From Phytoseiulus persimilis (Eukaryota > Arthropoda > Arachnida > Mesostigmata > Phytoseiidae): a stretch of DNA of 64,000 nt. Positions 2,461-14,386 of the stretch are shown here, one piece after another. A program made the translations under genes and the position numbers. The stretch is taken from positions 46,128,001-46,192,000 of the forward strand of contig CM075101.1 in the NCBI GenBank assembly GCA_037576195.1, written 5' to 3'. The notes under the pieces are model-generated. The model searched no databases, was not told where the DNA came from, and saw only the letters and a list, made by a program, of their open reading frames with translations. Within the stretch, counting starts at the first letter, position 1. Every line of letters begins with the position of its first letter.

Positions 2461-4884
2461 ACACGCTCAAATGTGCTCCAAGCCGCCGGGGAGATCAGGG
2501 CCTACTAGGGATTCGTCCTCGTACTGCATTGGAACACATGCTCGGATCTGTACAGGACTCGAACGCAGATCTCAAAGTGGTTTCTCAATGAGTTCCTGAT
2601 TGTTTCGGAAAGTGCGACCTTGTCTAACGAGCCGTCTCCGCGCATTCGCGTCGCACTCGAAAAACTCGGTGTATAGCTGAAGCCTGGGTCATCAGTTCGA
2701 GTCGTACAGCCGAGCTGAAGTCACTTGCGCTGGCGGACTCGCGAGAATGAGTCTCCTGAGGGAGGTGAAACAAAAAACATTCTCTAAGCGCTGGAATCAA
2801 GCAACGGATTGAAACCTCTGGTCTCTTCGAGACATATGAAATTGTGAGATTTTCTCGACTCAGGAACCTCCCATTTTCGATTCTATCGCGGAGGAACAGA
2901 TGTTGTTTCCAACTGTGTCGACGACGTATTTTTCCCGGCCTCCGTTGACACATGTTTTCCTCTCAATCAGCTAGAACACATGTTCTTCCAGTGAGCGACT
3001 TAGATCTCCCGGAGCATGCGATATAGACTTATTCACCGTTGAAGAACAAGATATGCACTTATTGAATACACAGGAGTTGATTTTAACCACGAGTTTGTAT
3101 TTTCCATTCTCTTCATCATTTGCCTCCACTTTATTTACATTGTTTCGAGGAACCTCCTCCTGTTGAAAAACTCTTCGTAGTTGCGACCCGCCGCGATGAC
3201 TGTACCCGACATTTATTTCTGGACTGAATTAGAAATTTGAAGTCAACCGAAGCTGTTGAGGACCAATTCTTGAGCATTCTGCATCGGCTCCTCTTCCCTT
3301 CCTGCCTTCTCAGAGTTTCACAAACGCCAGGGCTGGACGTCGAAGGCGGTGGATCGCTGTCTCAAACTGTCATCCGTGACAGCTGTCTCCTTCCGTCTCC
3401 TTCTGTCTTAGTTCAAACGAAATCGATTTGTTGAGCGGTTATCCGCCACGTCAAAACCTTTGACTTTGGCCTCAGTTTCCATCAGTCCCCGGGAAAACAA
3501 TTCTCTCCACTGTCCCATCCATCCAAACATCATCAAAGTAAACGATAGTCGTCATCAGCATCCATCGCTGTCATGTACAATACGAATCTTCGCGACAAGT
3601 CAGACTTTTCTGGCATTGTCGATACAAGCTCATCACCTGCGCTGCTGATATATCCGTAAATTCATTTATTTATAGATATTTATATATCCTCGTTTGTGAC
3701 AGCAGGAATTCAGTTATGATGATATCGTTTCCGTTTCTAGTTTCTAAGCCTCTGATATTCACAAACATGTACAACAAGTTGGAATTGAGAAATAGCAAAA
3801 AACTCTTTTGGACTTCTTGGTATTGCACGCTTGGTTTCGATTCGCGTTGTCTGTGATGCTTCCTCCGGTGGCTTCAGCGTCGAGCAAGGCCCTCATCCTC
3901 CTCCTCAGCCATCGACATCAACCCACAACGAGCATCGAGGCAATTCTGTAGCTGGGGCCGGTTCATTCTGGGAAACTTGTTTTGCATCCCTCCCCCCCCC
4001 TCCCTGCCTCGGAGTCTCCGTCTCTGATGAGCTGAACAAAATGATTCGTGTTCGCGTGGAGCCTCGGCCAGCCGGTCCTCTCCTTGTCGGGTCTCATTTA
4101 AGCAGAAGTCAAACAAAAAACAACCGATAGCTCGACAAGAGCCCCCGGGCTTTGGCAAATAGCTGTTCTGCCTCACTGGTCCGGGGCCCTCCTGTCCTAG
4201 GTAGACGGCTGGCTGGCTGGTTTGCTTACTTTCTTGAATTGAAGGTGTTCGCTCAAAAGAAGAAGTCTTCAGTCCGAGGAGAAGAACTGGCGAGCAGGAC
4301 GACAGACCGACGCACGAGCGAGTGAGCGACCGATGAGAGGTAAGGTGCTGGTGGTCCTCCGGTGCCGCCGCGGCCGCTGCAAGGGAAGAAGGATTAAACT
4401 CTTCCAAGTATGAATAGAAGGGCTCGTTATCTGCAGGCCATCCATCGGCCGAGCCGAGGAGACATCCCGTGGGGAGCGCGACTTTGTACGGCACAAGAGC
4501 ATGCTCTACTTCCAGGGACGGGGAGAATCGGTTCGAGGGCAGACAGGGTGCAAACCAACGCTCCGACCGATCCACCCACCCACCCATCTACACTCACGCA
4601 CTCGCACAAGATGATAGAGTGTACGTCAAACACGACCCGTCAACAAAAGGATTACTCTCCGAGGATAGCAATTTATTTTGTGATTCTGCTTTTCCAACGT
4701 CGCCGTTGTTGGAAACGGTCGTTGTTGTTGTCGCGCTCTTCTCTCTCTCTTCCCGAGCATAGACGCGGGACCCTTTCCGCACAGAACCAGCGGAGAATTT
4801 AGACTTCGCGGTCAGTCTGTGGGCAGTTCAGGAAAGAAGAGAAATTGTGGAAAAAAGGGTTAAAGCTTCACTGTGGTCTACTGT

Positions 4885-5110: not shown

Positions 5111-7974
5111 TGCTTGACCACTGAATCGCGTTCAGTGGAAAATAGAGGAAATTACTTCGACCTTTCATCTAGTAGTCGGCGCGTTCTGTCTGATGGAGGT
5201 CAACCTCCCGCCGCCTCCTGCGAAGACGCCTTCGTCGCTCTGTTCATTCCGTTCCTATCTCCCGCGCCTCGTCCCCCCTCTGCTCGGTCTGCGCCTTCCG
5301 AGCTCACATGGGCACATTCTAAGCAGAGGTTGGGCTGACGTCGGTGGAGGTAGGTATTTTGTTCCAAATTCAAAGCACATTGGAAGCACGGTGTTCTTCT
5401 CGTTTCCCCGCGTCTCACCAACGCCCACTTGCCCGCCGGGAGAGTCAGTCTCAGAACAAAAACCAGAACTTCAGATAATTACGTGTCTTGTTGGCAAGGG
5501 AAGTGCCCGACGACCAGTACAGGACTCTCTGATAATGTCCAACTCGATGACCAAGGTTGGGTCTCGCAGAGAGCGCTCCTTGCCTCCGGTAACTAGCGGG
5601 TGAAGCGTCACCACCGACCCCTGATGGAGAGTTGCATCGTTTTCGCTGTGAGTTTCGGGATTGAGCTTTTGTCAGAAGCTCTGCTCCTATGAAGTGGAGT
5701 TCGAGGGGAAGAGGAAAACACTGGAAACAGAAGAAGTAAACTCTCCCAAGGAAGTAAAAACTCTTCTCTCCCAGGAGGACACTCCCATATCGGAGATTTG
5801 AAACACCGCTTCGGAAGCTGGAGGGCGCGATGGTGTCTCGAGTCGACGGGTCCATCGGTGAACGTGTGGACGGTAGAGTGCGTGGGGATTTTGTCGGGGA
5901 GCGAAAAGACAACAACGTTGTTGGCGTTCCGGTGTGGAATAATCGATATGTTGCCCCTCATCGGAGCGCCGGTCGCCGGGCCACATCTTCCCTTTTCCTC
6001 CAGAGCTGGCAGCTCGCCTTTTACCCACCCGATTCGCCGGCCGGGTTGCTGGCAGGCTGTTAGGCTGGCGCTGGAGAGCCGCTTCCCAAACGACATTCTT
6101 CGTCGGGGCACCCAACCAGCCGGCTCGCTCAGCGTGGGGGGAAGTTTTTGTGGCTCGACACGAATGGATGGAAGAACCTCAAGTGGAAAGCTCCTTCCCA
6201 ACAGGCGTCACTCACTCGCTTGCTTGGTCGCCGATGTGAGGACTACTACTTTTCCTCTCCGCTTTGCCTTGCGTTTCGTTCTTTTCCCGTACGCACTGCT
6301 GCCGGCTCCCAGACGGGAGCAGCAAAAATTGAAGCTGGGAAAGACTAGGCGGGGGATTTCAACAAAACGCTTGCTCAACGGACGGGAATCGAGTTAAAAA
6401 ACGGATGAATCCGCCGCTGGTGCATGGGGGGCGGATAAAGAGCCAGCACAAAAACCTACAACGGATAGGGCTGATGAAGTCGTCCGATAGGACAGTCACC
6501 GGGCCCGGGAAGAACAATCGTCGGTGCGCAAAGCGTTGCGTTTCGGGAAAGTACACCGGAGAGGAAAAGGAAACGTAGCATTGCCTCCTCAATCAGAGCA
6601 GGCTGCGGTGTTTGCGAGAAAAATACGAAATTGAAGCTTGATGCGCGGGGCGCATGTACGTGCATCGCGGACGAAGTGTTCATCCTCTGAGACGATGAAA
6701 AACGGCTCGGCTGCGTCAAATCTAGCTTGCGAAGCTTGAAATGCCGTGTTGGAATACGCTAACGAGCGTCCGCGCGTTCAAAGCCACAGTTATCGGTCGC
6801 CACGAGGGAGTTAAGGCATTCAATGGCCCACTCGAGCTATTATAAAACCCATCGAATTGAATGGGCTCCGCAGAAGTCCCATGGAAGCGACCGCGAATCG
6901 AAGTCGTTCGAAAACAGTCATCAGATCTCCGAAGTCAGAACCGTTTTGAAAACGATCATGGAGGCGGCGACGCGTTCCCAGCCGAACACGGAATACGGAG
7001 TTGACGAACTCAATGCTCAACCTCTCAACGGAATTAGCTTTTGACAATGCAAAGCTTTCCGGAATCAGCAGGCGCCACAATACGTGGGTTGGAAAGAGGT
7101 CTGGAGAGCATTCTCTCTGTCGGCTCTCAGAGCGGTCAACGATTCGGTCGTCTGTCCGAGCGGCGGTGTCCTTGAGGCGGGAACGCGGCGGAAAATAAGC
7201 TCAACACTCCCACGAAATCTGAGAATTCTCACGGGCTCCGATTTCACGGGGGAGTGTCGAGGTTTTGGAGAAACGCAACTCGCCCCGGACAAACGAAGAG
7301 CGAATCGAGAAAGCTTTGGAAAAGTTCCGTCTCGTCGGCACGCCGCCGGTCGGAGGATCCGCGCAACATCCGAATGCGGCGAGTCCGTATATGTTTCCGC
7401 CGACTCGCTGTGATGAGGTCTCTAAAGTCCACGTTTTCTGCTGCTAACAAATAGCCAATGTCAGCCAAAAGCGGTCGGCGCCTCAAAAAACAGGCGACGA
7501 GTGGCTGAATGAATGAATGGTCGCCTCAACGTCCAACACCACGACAACAGACTGAGACGTAGACGACGGCGCAGTCGACCATGATGACGGCCACTGCAGC
7601 CATCGCAAGCGAGTAGCAGGCCATGTACGGGAGGCGTGTACTCGGTGCTTTCTCGTTCGCGCTGACGGACTGCTTCAGTGCTTGTTGGTCGTTTCGTTGT
7701 CGACGTCGTCGCAACCGCTTGGCTCGGTCCTCTGGTCGCGTGGTTCGTGGGATGTCTGCTGCCCGGATGGCCCGATGAGCCCTGTCTCGTACCGAGAGGA
7801 AAATTGCGAGAGATAGATCGTGGATGTAACATCTTCCCGGAAAGGAGAATTCAATCTTCAGCGGAGCAGCCAGTGTCACGCCGCCTCGCGTAGCATTGGG
7901 CGGCAGGCGGGATCGCTGGCCCACCACAATCCCTGTGCGAGTCGGATACGAGCAGGGAGAGGACAAGTCCGGTA

Positions 7975-7985: not shown

Positions 7986-9088
7986 CGAATCTCGGACGAG
8001 CATACGGGGCTAGCCAGCCAACTAGTGACTGTCACCCGGAAGCAAACCAAGACTCGCTGACATTCTGTCCCATTTTCCGTCGTCTGCTCACAACCAGCCG
8101 TTTTCGATTAACATAATCGCAACCAGCAGATGCTAGATCCCGCACACACACTCACAAACACTCACACGTTGCATACCCCACACATGCGCTCATGCAGACA
8201 ACTACAACACCTACCTCAAAACAGCTGATAACGTGTGGTTGGATACTGGATTTCCCGGGATTCTCCTGAATCTCCACTTCCGATGATGAGGCTTTTGAAG
8301 TAAAAGTCGACTCAGCTGCAGCAGGGTGATGCCCGGCACGTGTGGTGTCGCGACTCGGCTCACTCGTCCATCAATCCATCCGAGTTGAAGACTCGGGCTT
8401 CGGTATCTGGCGATCGTTAGGGAAGGCGGAAAGAAAAGTCGAACTCGACGAAAACGTTCGACTGATCGATAACAAGAGGAACTCGACGAGGAGCTGCTGA
8501 CGGTTGATGAGCACACCAACCGAATATCCGGACGAACGTCCGAGCGGGGGATGTAGACGGAGAAGTGTGGAGCTTTGCTTCTCCTCCTTATTATACAACA
8601 ACGACGACGTCTATTGCTTCAAGGTCCAGAGCTCTCTCCTCGTTCCTCCCATGGGGGACGCTCTCACTTCGGTGGCGCAGAAAGTCCTGCTGTACGGCGG
8701 ACGAGCTACTGAGTTTGCTCCTGTATTATTTTTTCCGCGCTCATACCCTCGCTGCTTCCCTCAACCTCCTCGGTTCGGGTTATTCTCCCACTGTTGTGAG
8801 AGAGAACCGCTAAGCAGCCGAGGCTGGGTGGAAATGAACTGGGGGCCCCGATCCCCGAGCAATCGATGGAGACGCTCAGAAAATCCGGGGGGCTGATGAC
8901 GGGGTCGTGTGCGGCTTGGGCTTGATGGTGAAGTTTAGGAGAATCGGGAAGGGTTCGACGGGGGTTAGAGGCGCAATGTGGAAAATTTCAAGAAGCCAAG
9001 GAGGCCTCAGAGAAATTGGAGGGAGGCTCGGAGCGTCATTTAGAAGCAGGCGAGGGGATCGTTGTGTGTTTCTTCGGTTCCTTCATTA

Positions 9089-9244
9089 TTAATACAGAAA
9101 CGGGGGGACCATCGGGTGCTGCGGCGGCTGCTGAACCAGGGAAGCTCGTCGGACTTGAGGGTATTGTCCAACAACGTCCGCGTAGTCGGACATGCCCCCC
9201 TGGTAGACAGGGGTGTGCTGCAGCTCTTCGTCCCCCCGCTCCTG
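9089..9244 (-). other. In-frame readthrough extension of the LRR receptor tail
   Basis: After the TAG at 9245-9247 the same reading frame stays open for 51 codons and ends at TAA-TAA (the first TAA is 9091-9089). The peptide reads like a receptor cytoplasmic tail: acidic start (GDEELQH), four tyrosines, a SDYADV segment fitting the S-x-Y-x-x-V immunoreceptor-type consensus, an RRASL segment fitting the basophilic (PKA-type) phosphosite consensus, then a Gln/Pro-rich end and PPFLY. A short intron cannot remove the TAG in frame: the only local GT-to-AG options are 29 or 32 nt, too short, and both shift the frame. The base after the TAG is C, a context associated with leaky termination. Alternatives are a single-base error or polymorphism (TAC would give Tyr), or genuine termination with the extension a relic. 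The continuity is seen directly; translation is inferred. Confidence 0.55.
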
Positions 9245-9987
9245 CTAGGGAATCGTTTCGCCGGGATCCCCACCCGGAATGGAGAAATGTCGGTATGAGA
9301 TGTACTCCGGAGGGACGTCCTCTTCGTGGATGGGCCTCCGCTTCTTCCTGCGCGAACGCTTCAGTCGGACCGCCGTCACGATCACCGAGGTGAACACGAT
9401 CAGGCCCAAGCCCAGCCCGACGCCCAGCGCAACGCCCAGTTCGGGCATGCTCATTAGACGCTTGTGAATCCGCGGACTTGTTTTGACGTGCAGACATTTC
9501 CGTCCGCTGCTCTCCAGGTCACTGTCGTAGGGAATGTTGGCGTAAGCTGTCGGCTTCCCCAACGGTCTCAAGTAGCGTCCTGCAGCTGTCACACACAACA
9601 GATACTCCCGCTCAGCCGAGAGTCCCGTTAAAACGAAAGCTCTCTTCATCGCTGGCAGGGGGAACGAGTCGTTGTTCTCGGAGCAAGTTGCCACAGGACA
9701 CGGCGATGTGGGATGGGATGATAATACAAATTGGTCGACCAACGTCGAGTTGTCCGCCTGCCACGACAGGCTCACACTGCTGTGACCAACCTCGCCCGCG
9801 GTGAGCGAGCCGATAACTGGTGCGGGACAGAAATCCACCGGATGGAGAACGTTGACGTCCTGTCCGGACAGTCTTTCAGGATAGGTGCAAAACGGGTTAG
9901 ATGAGCTGTCCGTCATTTGTAGCTGTGGATGTTCTTTCAGCCACTCCCAGAAGCCCAGCATCCGGCAGTCGCATTTGAGGGGATTGC
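9245..9987 (-). CDS. atk: Artichoke-like LRR transmembrane protein, last exon (LRRCT, FN3, membrane helix, tail)
   Basis: This exon completes the giant LRR protein encoded upstream at 14265-10986. The acceptor is AATTTCAG at 9995-9988, and the split glycine codon (1+2 nt) joins LLLTG to NPLKCDC, restoring a textbook LRRCT cap with cysteines at about residues 1099, 1101, 1127 and 1147. Next come a fibronectin-III-like domain (about 1148-1243), a Gly/Leu/Val-rich membrane helix (about 1277-1300), a basic stop-transfer stretch (RLKRSRRKKRR) and a short cytoplasmic tail to residue 1340 at TAG 9245-9247. The product is therefore a type I membrane protein with its LRRs outside the cell. As I recall it, Drosophila Artichoke is described as an extracellular protein needed for sensory cilium morphogenesis, so the anchor is notable if this is the orthologue. 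Domain boundaries are by eye. Confidence 0.88.
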
Positions 9988-10985
9988 CTGAAATTGAACG
10001 ATTTTCCGTTGCACAGAATCTGTCTGAATGGACGGTGTGGCGAAACATGCCCCTTCTTCAAGAGGCACTCATGGAAGTCAATATTCGGCCGTTCCCTCTT
10101 CCGCGCAGACTATCATAGTTCCTGAACTTTCATCCGAGAACCCTTTGGGATCCAGAACCTCCCCGGTCAGACTTTCATCAAAATATCGAATCGGCACGAG
10201 AGAGAGCTCGGACGCACAGGCATGCTCCCATTTCTGGGAGGCCTTCGATCCTGGCCTCTGATTCGGAGAGCTCTTTTCAAATCATGGTCATATCAATGCT
10301 TGGACCCCGATCGCGCATCGAGAGTCGTCGCGAACCCGCCGAGCTAGCCAGATGGTGTAGGACAGTTTCCAACGCTGGGGGACAACGTCGCCAACGAAAT
10401 AAGGCCAAGTGTCACTCACTGGTTCGACCAGTCAGTCAGTCTCAGCAACGGCGGCACCGGCACTCACAGGCTGACTTCAACAATGACGTCAAAGGAGAAA
10501 GAAGTTCCAAGATAAGTCGGCCTTTTGTTGCGAGTCTACGGGGTTCACGGGCATTGTTGCTGCAGCTAAAGCGACTGTAGCTGCAGATGGCTCATTGACA
10601 TAGAAGAAAAAAGAAGCTCGCGACTTGGGAACAACCCAACCAACCAGCTCTGCTCCAGCCATTGCGATTCAGGACTCCCTCCAGTAGTCCCTCTCGGACA
10701 ACCTCATTTCTATTGGAGCAGCTCATTTCTGCACGCTTGGGAGCCGAATGACGATAACCGATAGTTCATAACTGTTTTCCAACAAAAGTATCGGAACGAG
10801 GAGGCAGGGACCCGGAAGAGCTGTGGAAGAAAGGGGGACGAGCTGATGGGGGACAGAGGGGACACGGACTAGGGAGGGGGGGGGGCAATAGAGGAACAAC
10901 GACGAGGAATTGAGTGACGAGGACGTAAACAGAGGGGCAAACTTATTCAGAGGCGGGAGAGAGCTTTGTTTGGGCAGACCCTCAC
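9988..10985 (-). other. Intron of the LRR gene
   Basis: A 998-nt phase-1 intron. The donor is AACAG followed by GTGAG (exon ends at 10986) and the acceptor is TTTCAG followed by GC (exon resumes at 9987). Joining these sites recreates the uninterrupted LRR-to-LRRCT transition, which is strong internal proof. I see no further exon inside it. The plus strand carries a tandem CAGT motif at about 10432-10441 and a poly-G stretch near 10877. Confidence 0.88.
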
Positions 10986-13900
10986 CTGTTAAGAGCAGTT
11001 TGCTGAGGCGCCGCTCGATGATGTGGAACATACTTTGGCTGAAGTACATTAGATTATTACTGCTTAGATTGAGCTCTTCTAGCACGATCAAATTGTTGAA
11101 AGCATCCGCTGCGGCCCATCGGATGTTGTTGTTGCTCAGGTCAAGTCGTTTCAGACCCACCAGAGAATCGAGAACAATCTCCTGAATTTTAACTAGTTTG
11201 TTGTTGGCGACGTCCAGCGACTCGAGCAGAGCCAAATCGACCGGAAACGCCTGCAGTTCTGTCAATTTGTTCTGGGAAAGGTTGAGATACTTGAGAGCAA
11301 ACAGTCCCTGGAGCCGTTCAGTCGGAAGCACCTCGATGTGATTCTCGCTGAGGTCAAGCGAGACGAGCCTCCGGAGCGGACGGAGCGCTCCGGGAGAGAC
11401 CTTATTGATGCGGTTGTGAGCGAACGAGAGCAGCGTCAGTTCGGGAAAGCTGTGCATGTCGTTCGTCGCTAGAATGGACACGTTCCCGAAGGACAGATCT
11501 AGCTCCTCGAGTGCTGGGAGCAGGCCGCCGCTGGCGAAATCTTCCCGCACCCTGGTCATCGGGTTGCGGGAGAGTCTGAGAACTCGCAGCTTGGCCATCT
11601 GAACGGCTCCGTCGACGATGGCGTTCGGGATGTAGGAGAAGTCGTTCCCGTCCAGGTCGAGCTGTTCCAAGCCGGTGGTGTTTCTGAATAGGTGGTAAGG
11701 CAGGGTGCGCAGGCGGTTCGAGCCGAGGTCGAGGAAGCGCAGTCCAGACTCGTCGAACACGTCGTTGTTGATTGAGCCGATCAAATTATTCGACAGATCC
11801 AGCCGTTCGAGGGCGTGGAGGCCTTTGAGGCATCCGCTCCGGAGGATGGTTATGTTGTTTCCGGCCAGACGGAGCGTTTCCACCTGGGCGTTAATTGAAT
11901 CTGTCGGAATAGCCGTGAGAGAATTGCCTTCGAGGGAAAGTTCGCGCAGAGGCAGACCACTCAGGAGCCCCTGTCGGAGAGAGGAGACGTTGTTGTGTCC
12001 CGCGCGCAGGGTGTGCAATGAGCCCAGTCGTTCGAATAAGCCCACCCGATTTAGGTTGATGTGTGACGCGGACAAGTCGAGCTCCTCGAGGGAGGTCATT
12101 TTGTCAAACAGACCCTCGACCAGTTTCGAGGGAGTCGTGCCAGCCAGCCGTAAGAGTCGCAGCTGGCTCAGACCCGAAAGGCGCAACACCTTGATGGGGT
12201 TCCCCGAGAGATCGAGCACCTCGAGGCCTGTCAGGCCGTCGAAGGCCCCGTTCTCGATCGAGTTCAAGCCCGAGTTGGATAAATTCAATGCCTGCAGGCC
12301 GGGGATGGTGCCGAACGTGTCCGGCCCGACCGCGCCGAGTTGGTTGTGGGCCAAGTCGAGCACTCGGAGTCGGCCCAAATAGGAGAACGAACCCTTCGCC
12401 ACGGTGGTCAAGTTGTTCCGTTTCAGCAAAAGCTCCTCGAGGCTCTTCAGGCCTCGGAAAGTCGAAACTCGCAGCGCTCTGAGTTGGTTGCCGCTGAGGT
12501 CGAGGAACGTGCATTCGGCGAGACTGTCGAAGGCGCCGTCCTCGATATCGGCCACGTTGTTGCCGTCGAGGTAGAGACGCGTCGTTGATGTCAGGTCCCG
12601 GAACATGTCGACCCGGAGCCGTCGGAGCTTGTTCGAGCGGATTTCGAGCATTTCGAGCTTCGTTTGTCGGCTCAGCGGCGTGCTCAGGCTGCTCAGATCG
12701 CTGAGCTGGTTCAGGCTGAGGAAGAGCGAGCGGAGGTTGGAGCCGACCCGGATGAGGATGTCGTGGATCTCGAGCAGCTTGTTGCCCTGCAGGTTGAGGT
12801 GTTGGAGGGCGGCGAGTCCGGCCAGCGCCTCGGGCTCGATCGACTCGATGCGGTTGTTCTGCAGATGGAGCTCCTCGAGATTGGCCAGCGGGAAGAACAC
12901 CCCTCGACGGACCTTTTTCAGGTAGTTGTGCTGCAGACGGAGGTCGCGCAACTCGTCGAGCTGTCGGAAAGTGCCGACTTCGAGCTCGGCGAGGAGGTTG
13001 TTGTCCAGCGAGAGCGACCTCAGCTCGCCGCTGGCCCGGAACAGGGCCGGCGACACGGACCGCAGTCGATTGAATGACAGCTGCAGTTGGCTGAGGCGTT
13101 CGAGGCCTTCGAAGGCGCCGAGCTCGATTTGCTCGATGGCGTTGTTTGGCACGAACAGAATCGATATGTTCTGGCAGTTGGTGAAGGTGTCGTTGCGCAG
13201 CCGGAGGATATTGTTATTCGATAGCAGCACCTCGCGCAGCTGCGCCATGTTTTGGAAGGGGCCGTCGTCGACGCCATGCAAATGGTTTGAGCCCAGCTCG
13301 ATGGTGCGCAGCTGGGTCAGCGGGCGCAAAATCGACGGGTGCAGCCACTGAACGAAGTTCTGGCCGAGGTCGAGCGACTCGATCTCGCGGCTGTGCTCGA
13401 ACGTCCCGTTCGTCACCTGGCTGATCTCGTTCTGGAACAGGGAGAGCGAGCGCAGGCGCGGCATCGAGGCCAGGCTCCGGTTCGTCAGCGACGTGAGCCG
13501 GTTCTGGCTCAGGTCGACCGTCTGCAGGTTGATGAAGCGCGTCAGGCCGTCGTCGATGATGTCGGCGATCAGGTTGCCGACGAGCTTCAGCACTTTGAGC
13601 GCCTGCAGCCGCCGCAACGCCATGAACGGGAACAGCGGCAACCGGTTGTTGCTCAGGTTCAGGTCCTCCAACGAGGACTCGAGCCCACCGAACGCGAACT
13701 CGGCCAGCTGGCTGATCTCGTTGTTCTGCAGCATCAACGACCTGAGCTGCAGGCCGTAGAACGAGTAGCTCTCGACGTCGACGATCGAGTTCGAGTCCAA
13801 CTCGAGCGTGCGTAACGTTTTCACGTTTTTGATGGCTCCGCGCGGAAGCTCCTTGAGATCGCAGTTGGAAATGGTCAGCGACAGCAGCGAGTTCTCGAGG

Positions 13901-14265
13901 CCGAGGAACGCGCCGTCGTCCAGTCGGTGCAGAGCGCTGTTCGAGATGTGCAGCGTCGAGATCTTCTTGCCGACGAACATCCCCTTGGGGAAGACGTTGC
14001 CCGCGACGTCAACTTTGACCAACGTCAGCTGTCTCAGCGGCCCGGTGATCTTCGACAGGGCGTTGCGGAGCCGCTGTTCGCTGACGTCGGCGCACTCGAG
14101 GAACAACGCGTCCTCGAAGTCGTAGCAGAGACACGGCGTGATGTCCACGTCAGGGCCCACGCAGCCGCTAGTTAGCCGGCTGGCGTTCTGAGCCCGGCCG
14201 AGGCCCAGCGCCAGCACGATGGTCCAGAGGGTGGCGGCCAGCGCACAGAGTTTCTGTGTCGCCAT
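10986..14265 (-). CDS. atk: Artichoke/chaoptin-type giant leucine-rich-repeat protein, main exon
   Basis: This exon encodes residues 1-1093 of a 1340-residue protein. The ATG at 14265 opens a hydrophobic signal peptide (about 1-25, ending near GLGRAQ). It is followed by a cysteine-containing N-terminal cap (Cys 35, 45, 47, 58) with a CYDFED/LFLEC pattern that I associate with arthropod Artichoke proteins. From about residue 75 to 1090 the sequence is continuous 24-residue LxxLxLxxNxL repeats, roughly 40 by length, with several N-linked glycosylation sequons. No repeat is interrupted by an intron. Codons are strongly G/C-ending. Such LRR ectodomains act in cell adhesion or in apical extracellular-matrix and sensory organ assembly. 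Length is a little short of what I recall for Drosophila Artichoke (about 1500 residues). Other candidates are chaoptin or another arthropod LRR receptor; membership of the family is much surer than orthology. Confidence 0.9.
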
Positions 14266-14386
14266 TCTTTCTCCAGCTTGTACGTTTTAGCTTGTCATCC
14301 TCCACATTAGGGCCAGCCTCCCCGTCGTCCTGGCAGCCCTTGTCCCGGTTGTCGACGGCGTCGTCACGAGCATTTTGTGCGCATAC
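14266..14386 (-). other. Probable 5'UTR part of the LRR exon, with acceptor and uORFs
   Basis: Upstream of the ATG on the minus strand, a pyrimidine tract ending CTCCCTTTCAG (AG at 14388-14387) looks like a good splice acceptor, so the coding exon probably begins at 14386 after a 5'UTR intron. The 121-nt leader contains two short upstream open frames: 14384-14364 (6 codons plus stop) and 14373-14287 (28 codons plus stop). Both end before the main ATG. The first exon and promoter lie further upstream and were not located. Confidence 0.5.

Follow-up and report, generated by a model that had tools for sequence, protein, structure and literature searches.

The leucine-rich repeat (LRR) receptor gene on the minus strand of the 64,000-nucleotide stretch of Phytoseiulus persimilis DNA analysed here (the window) raises the question of whether its translation stops at the first in-frame stop codon or continues, in a fraction of passages, into the open stretch behind it. 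The stop is a TAG (9245..9247, minus strand; context CCC TAG CAG GAG), and the first-pass annotation, in which a candidate for readthrough was proposed at this site, correctly placed 51 open in-frame codons after it (candidate extension, 9092..9244, minus strand; QERGDEELQH...PPFLY). Frame, stop and openness can be read directly from the DNA. The terminator of the open stretch had been described as a double TAA; TAA TAA is indeed present, but as part of three consecutive stops, TAA TAA TGA (9083..9091, minus strand).

The gene model follows directly from the sequence and comprises two exons on the minus strand. Exon A (10986..14265) starts with the ATG at 14265 and a signal-peptide-like segment (MATQKLCALAATLWTIVLALGLGRAQ) and contributes 1093 codons and one further base, most of it encoding leucine-rich repeats. 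Its frame is open for 1187 codons (10723-14286, minus strand), and the repeat array matches Pfam LRR_8 in 24 stretches with an E value of 3.1e-180. A phase-1 intron (9988..10985, minus strand), inferred from the sequence, is bounded by the donor AACAG/GTGAGG at 10985, which is the top donor in 11100-10000 (score 10.8), and the acceptor TTTCAG/GC at 9987, the sole acceptor scoring >3 in 10750-9960 (3.4); the splice-site scores given here derive from generic matrices. The phases of the two exons match (phase 1 in both), the spliced protein reads ...LLLTGNPLKCDC..., and the junction runs the last LRR into the LRR C-terminal cap GNPLKCDC. The coding part of exon B (9248..9987, minus strand; the receptor's 3' end is contained in the open frame 9245-10057) comprises this cap (GNPLKCDC...), with weak PDB matches to LRR caps (best E 0.0025), an FN3-like region (about 9808-9581; fn3 E 1.3e-4, 22.5 bits, under the Pfam cut-off of 25), a hydrophobic span, and a short cytoplasmic tail ending in ...GGDPGETIP. 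The likely membrane span (LGVALGVGLGLGLIVFTSVIVTAV; 9368..9439, minus strand), a by-eye reading of the translation, is followed by a basic stretch. The product is thus likely to be an LRR type I membrane receptor with a cytoplasmic tail of about 40 residues, its signal peptide, span and tail being predicted by eye from the translation. Counting from the ATG at 14265 to the codon preceding the TAG, with the phase-1 intron, reproduces the 1340 residues given previously, and translation past the TAG would yield 1392 residues, in agreement with the long isoform of about 1392 proposed earlier. The short tail also contains, at 9302-9313 (minus strand) near YRHF, a PPEY (PPxY-type) motif, which is presumably a WW-domain ligand motif.

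The peptide that readthrough would add contains two YxxPhi motifs, YADV and YPQV, as well as the site RRAS, and it ends in a proline-rich segment. We take the YxxPhi motifs to be tyrosine-based sorting-like signals and RRAS to be a PKA-like site. Of 1341 non-coding windows that are open, 16 likewise contain at least two YxxPhi motifs and 139 contain RRx[ST]; these frequencies have to be read with caution, since the motifs were picked after the peptide had been seen. Neither AATAAA nor ATTAAA occurs on the minus strand from 9250 down to 4678 (4.5 kb 3' of the receptor stop); the first AATAAA 3' of the stop is at 4677 (minus strand), and weaker variants lie at 9087, 9074, 8727 and below. A search of the window against Rfam returned nothing at gathering score.

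Searches for relatives covered viral and prokaryotic collections as well as the mite's own genome. No relative of the last exon was found in viral_contigs or genome_contigs (one scan each), none of the extension in viral_contigs (one scan), and none of the LRR exon in genome_contigs; because these collections hold viruses and prokaryotes only, the lack of matches carries no information on conservation in mites. In the mite's own genome, the search for paralogues of exon B gave just two weak matches, with E values of 0.158 and 2.15, and the receptor tail has no further relative there.

The extension codons had been called protein-like. They are coding-like, roughly to the same degree as the gene's own last exon, and only modestly above non-coding sequence, in that 0.7-2.2% of open non-coding 51-codon windows match them. 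A codon score trained on 29 kinase domains (7508 codons; 30 loci were fetched, and L058 was dropped due to a stop inside the matched stretch) is reached by 0.66% of open non-coding windows, and 14.5% of 131 true coding pieces fall below the extension. The corresponding fraction of non-coding windows is 1.3% when the score is trained on the receptor gene itself, and 1.4% when it is trained on kinase plus other loci. With respect to synonymous-codon choice alone, the extension is unremarkable under the kinase-trained model, being matched by 16% of open non-coding windows; under the receptor gene's own codon usage the value is 1.2%. The GC content at the three codon positions is 0.80/0.37/0.73; 0.3% of open non-coding windows show as strong a contrast. 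All of these measures are mutually non-independent, and the backgrounds of the kinase- and gene-trained codon scores include both copies of a 12.4-kb duplication, one of which is omitted from the classifier background.

The classifier, a logistic model of phased mono- and dinucleotides trained on 386 coding windows from 40 loci and 1341 open windows of non-coding sequence, with a cross-validated AUC of 0.95, assigned the extension a score of 1.58, with 2.2% of non-coding windows above and 28% of coding windows below it, corresponding to a likelihood ratio of about 8. Its other frames scored -3.2 (+1) and -8.4 (+2). Four windows from the final 612 bases of the gene's last exon ranged from -0.31 to 2.52; the extension outscores three of these four, and one of the 21 in-frame 51-codon windows of exon A, all 21 of which were classed as coding (1.2 to 7.4). 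Among second ORFs following kinase frames, none of the 12 with at least 20 codons matches the extension's score, while three of 6-8 codons do. When the minus strand from 9090 to 4000 was scanned for an alternative last exon, three separate windows outscored the extension. An open 51-codon window at 7541-7693 (minus strand), to which no gene is assigned, has a coding score of 3.5, which is above that of the extension.

Two features of the sequences used for these comparisons deserve mention. The duplication spans 19103-43898 of the window as a near-perfect tandem repeat of about 12.4 kb, with an offset of 12398 that changes to 12399 near the end; it arose either by segmental duplication in the very recent past or as an artefact of assembly, and the receptor gene lies outside it. 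Many of the kinase domains listed for the mite's own genome match nearly the whole profile inside a single open frame, a possible sign that introns have been lost extensively in this lineage.

Openness by itself is common in this genome. In the background, 5801 of 23056 windows of 51 codons (25%) are open, and a second ORF of at least 51 codons follows the kinase reading frame in five of 29 cases, although some of the kinase frames may be closed by an intron and not by the genuine stop codon; the openness of the extension therefore means little alone. Taking the about 15,190 genes given for T. mercedesae in PMC5467014, a long second ORF in 17-25% of them, and a score this high in 0.66-2.2% of those, roughly 20-80 genes genome-wide are estimated to resemble the receptor by chance, of which 3-14 would also have C at position +4 (C follows the stop in five of the 29 kinase frames). 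This estimate has to be weighed against the genuine readthrough genes of the clade, which appear to be few. The GC content of the window is 55%; the 52% of M. occidentalis is the highest among the arachnids tabulated in PMC5467014.

Ordinary termination at the TAG, followed by a stretch that is open by chance, is the single likeliest account of the locus, and we favour it over readthrough, tentatively and at slightly less than even confidence. Translation of the receptor mRNA would end normally at 9247-9245, giving the type I membrane protein of 1340 residues, and the next 51 codons would be 3' untranslated sequence, open and protein-like by chance as expected for tens of genes in a GC-rich genome. 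We infer that the extension is under no protein-coding selection. Any readthrough would then be low-level leakage aided by the C at +4. Leakage without selection is also possible because readthrough in Drosophila, as reported from ribosome profiling in PMC3840789, is more pervasive than predicted and much of it is recent. Counted against an ordinary stop are the coding score at the level of the last exon, the GC contrast between codon positions, the synonymous score under the gene's own usage, the failure of all 12 kinase second ORFs to match the extension, the two YxxPhi motifs, and the three stops that close the stretch.

Programmed readthrough, in which a near-cognate tRNA would decode the TAG during some ribosome passages and add 52 residues to the cytoplasmic tail, giving two receptor isoforms, is a possible but rather unlikely alternative. 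Besides the preserved frame and the coding-like composition, it is favoured by the +4 position of the stop context. The C at +4 (TAG C), which the first-pass annotation had regarded as typical of leaky stops, is confirmed; C is over-represented at readthrough stops and, according to PMC5100048, follows the stop in 49-63% of readthrough candidates, depending on the group. UAG ranks next to UGA, the leakiest stop, in PMC12233894, where a preceding A or G is described as favouring and a preceding U as lowering readthrough; the base before the receptor TAG is C, i.e. not one of the favourable bases.

UAG-CAR-NBA is a known strong context for UAG readthrough. Many readthrough genes are without the CAR-NBA motif, which is therefore not essential. 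The receptor sequence CAG GAG provides CAR as the next codon, but not NBA, and +9 is G instead of the A found in the Drosophila gene dfr (PMC13170385). The RNA downstream gives a divided picture. Among five windows tried in total, the first 60 nt from +4 and the 50 nt from +7 are not structured beyond chance (z +0.60 and -0.75 relative to shuffles), which speaks against readthrough, whereas the fold is mildly better than that of shuffles in the longer windows from +4 (z -1.33 for 80 nt, -1.67 for 100 nt and -2.21 for 120 nt), the 100 and 120 nt values being in its favour. Since a stable 3' RNA structure is present at 9-10% of mosquito and fly readthrough candidates, such structure is an optional criterion. 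Further points on the side of readthrough are that no good splice alternative spares the membrane span, and that Drosophila offers precedents: 2mit is an LRR receptor with a predicted readthrough isoform carrying an endocytic motif (PMC3786989), and the UAG of dfr is decoded as glutamine (PMC13170385). By analogy with dfr, the receptor TAG, too, would most likely be read as glutamine. Because the extension has YxxPhi motifs, the RRAS site and the proline-rich end, it is plausible that the long form would be trafficked or would signal differently.

Against programmed readthrough, the coding signal is at the level expected by chance in some tens of genes, and the prior for the clade is low, judging from PMC5100048. 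Regulated readthrough had been put forward as documented in many arthropod genes. This applies to most insects tested and to one crustacean, but not to the non-Pancrustacean species tested, including an arachnid and a centipede, none of which had abundant readthrough in that survey; two insects were likewise below the abundance line, and, according to the authors, incomplete annotation can mask readthrough (PMC5100048). The genome analysed here looks like that of a mesostigmatan mite, outside Pancrustacea, and probably of a phytoseiid-like one. It measures 181 Mb, with four large sequences of 54.7, 52.0, 38.9 and 28.1 Mb, and four chromosomes are frequent in phytoseiid mites. Insect odorant receptors, odorant-binding proteins and chemosensory proteins gave 0, 0 and 0 matches in it, in a search whose controls lack these families, so that the zeros are no proof of absence, although other families did match. 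Among the ten arthropods in Table 2 of PMC5467014, this triple zero is found only for two mesostigmatan mites, and Daphnia, the tick and the centipede have chemosensory proteins. In the literature on mites, ticks and Chelicerata, none of the matches listed dealt with readthrough in a gene of a mite or tick. The most novel possibility, at the rather low probability given above for readthrough, is programmed UAG readthrough in an arachnid: a large LRR receptor would have two cytoplasmic tails, the longer one carrying 52 additional residues with motifs for sorting and phosphorylation, in a lineage for which the survey in PMC5100048 reports no abundant readthrough.

Less probable still, and unlikely in our judgement, is that the extension represents the present or former normal tail, the TAG having arisen by recent nonsense mutation, segregating as one allele, or reflecting a single wrong base in the assembly. 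A single substitution turns any TAG into one of several sense codons, the tail has a natural reading both before and after the stop, and a stop so late within the last exon should be mild in its consequences. Such cases were subtracted by Jungreis et al., with an estimate of 17 in D. melanogaster given in PMC5100048. No positive pointer to such an event was found, however, and the C at +4 would have to be coincidental. Only one copy of this DNA is available: a genome-wide search matched the DNA of the TAG region once, and hence the assembly has no second allele or copy of it.

Removal of the TAG by alternative splicing, via an in-frame intron or an upstream donor joined to another acceptor in some transcripts, is very improbable. 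It had been argued previously that splicing cannot remove the TAG in frame as only 29- or 32-nt options exist. The conclusion stands, as candidate pairs score poorly, but the premise does not: between 9990 and 9095 there are 200 in-frame GT-AG pairs of at least 25 nt, whereas the 29- and 32-nt introns starting at donor 9273 are out of frame, in agreement with the first-pass annotation. These two introns were rejected, as they lead into a reading scored as non-coding. Individual sites count in favour of splicing, such as the donor CGG/GTGGGG at 9273 (6.1) and the acceptor CCTGTCTACCAG at 9200 (3.5, similar to the 3.4 of the inferred true acceptor). However, the best 25 of the 200 pairs all use donors upstream of 9368 and would delete the membrane span or the basic stretch following it. 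Only 15 pairs (48 to 213 nt; donors 9357, 9316 and 9273) remove the TAG and spare the span, and none scores well; their best sums are about 1.8 (9273 with 9154) and -0.6 (9316 with 9200), versus 14.2 for the inferred real intron. The in-frame acceptors available to donor 9273, the best GT near the TAG, score only -9.2, -4.3 and -6.9; the nearest of them, defining a 48-nt intron (9226..9273, minus strand), was rejected for its acceptor score of -9.2.

The two leading readings, ordinary termination and readthrough, differ in what the locus would teach. Should the extension be translated, this type of recoding, which is known chiefly in insects and a crustacean, would gain a receptor gene, and readthrough in arachnids would seem to have been under-counted. 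If it is not translated, the locus illustrates that coding-like in-frame stretches of 50 codons after stops are to be expected by chance in tens of genes of a GC-rich genome; for this reason, the reading of a single genome cannot call readthrough.

As to known systems, the receptor, with its very long LRR array and C-terminal cap, may belong beside the large arthropod LRR receptors of the chaoptin, artichoke and convoluted kind, which share these features. With the conserved readthrough genes of Drosophila and Anopheles described by Jungreis et al. (2016; PMC5100048), it shares the in-frame second ORF, the coding-like composition and the C after the stop. Those genes, however, rest on codon conservation across multiple species and usually have TGA as the stop, whereas the mite receptor is represented by one genome, has TAG, and belongs to another clade (PMC5100048). 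The Drosophila protein 2mit is likewise an LRR type I membrane protein for which a longer tail with an endocytic motif is predicted by readthrough. According to PMC3786989, it has 16 repeats and would be extended by 13 residues, in contrast to the about 1090 residues, mostly repeats, and the 51-residue candidate extension of the mite receptor. The resemblance to dfr (drifter/ventral veins lacking) is confined to the stop context, UAG followed by CAR. In dfr the sequence reads UAG CAA UCA and, as stated in PMC13170385, the stem-loop of a structure element between +10 and +58 promotes readthrough, whereas in the mite receptor it reads UAG CAG GAG and the first 60 nt show no structure beyond chance.
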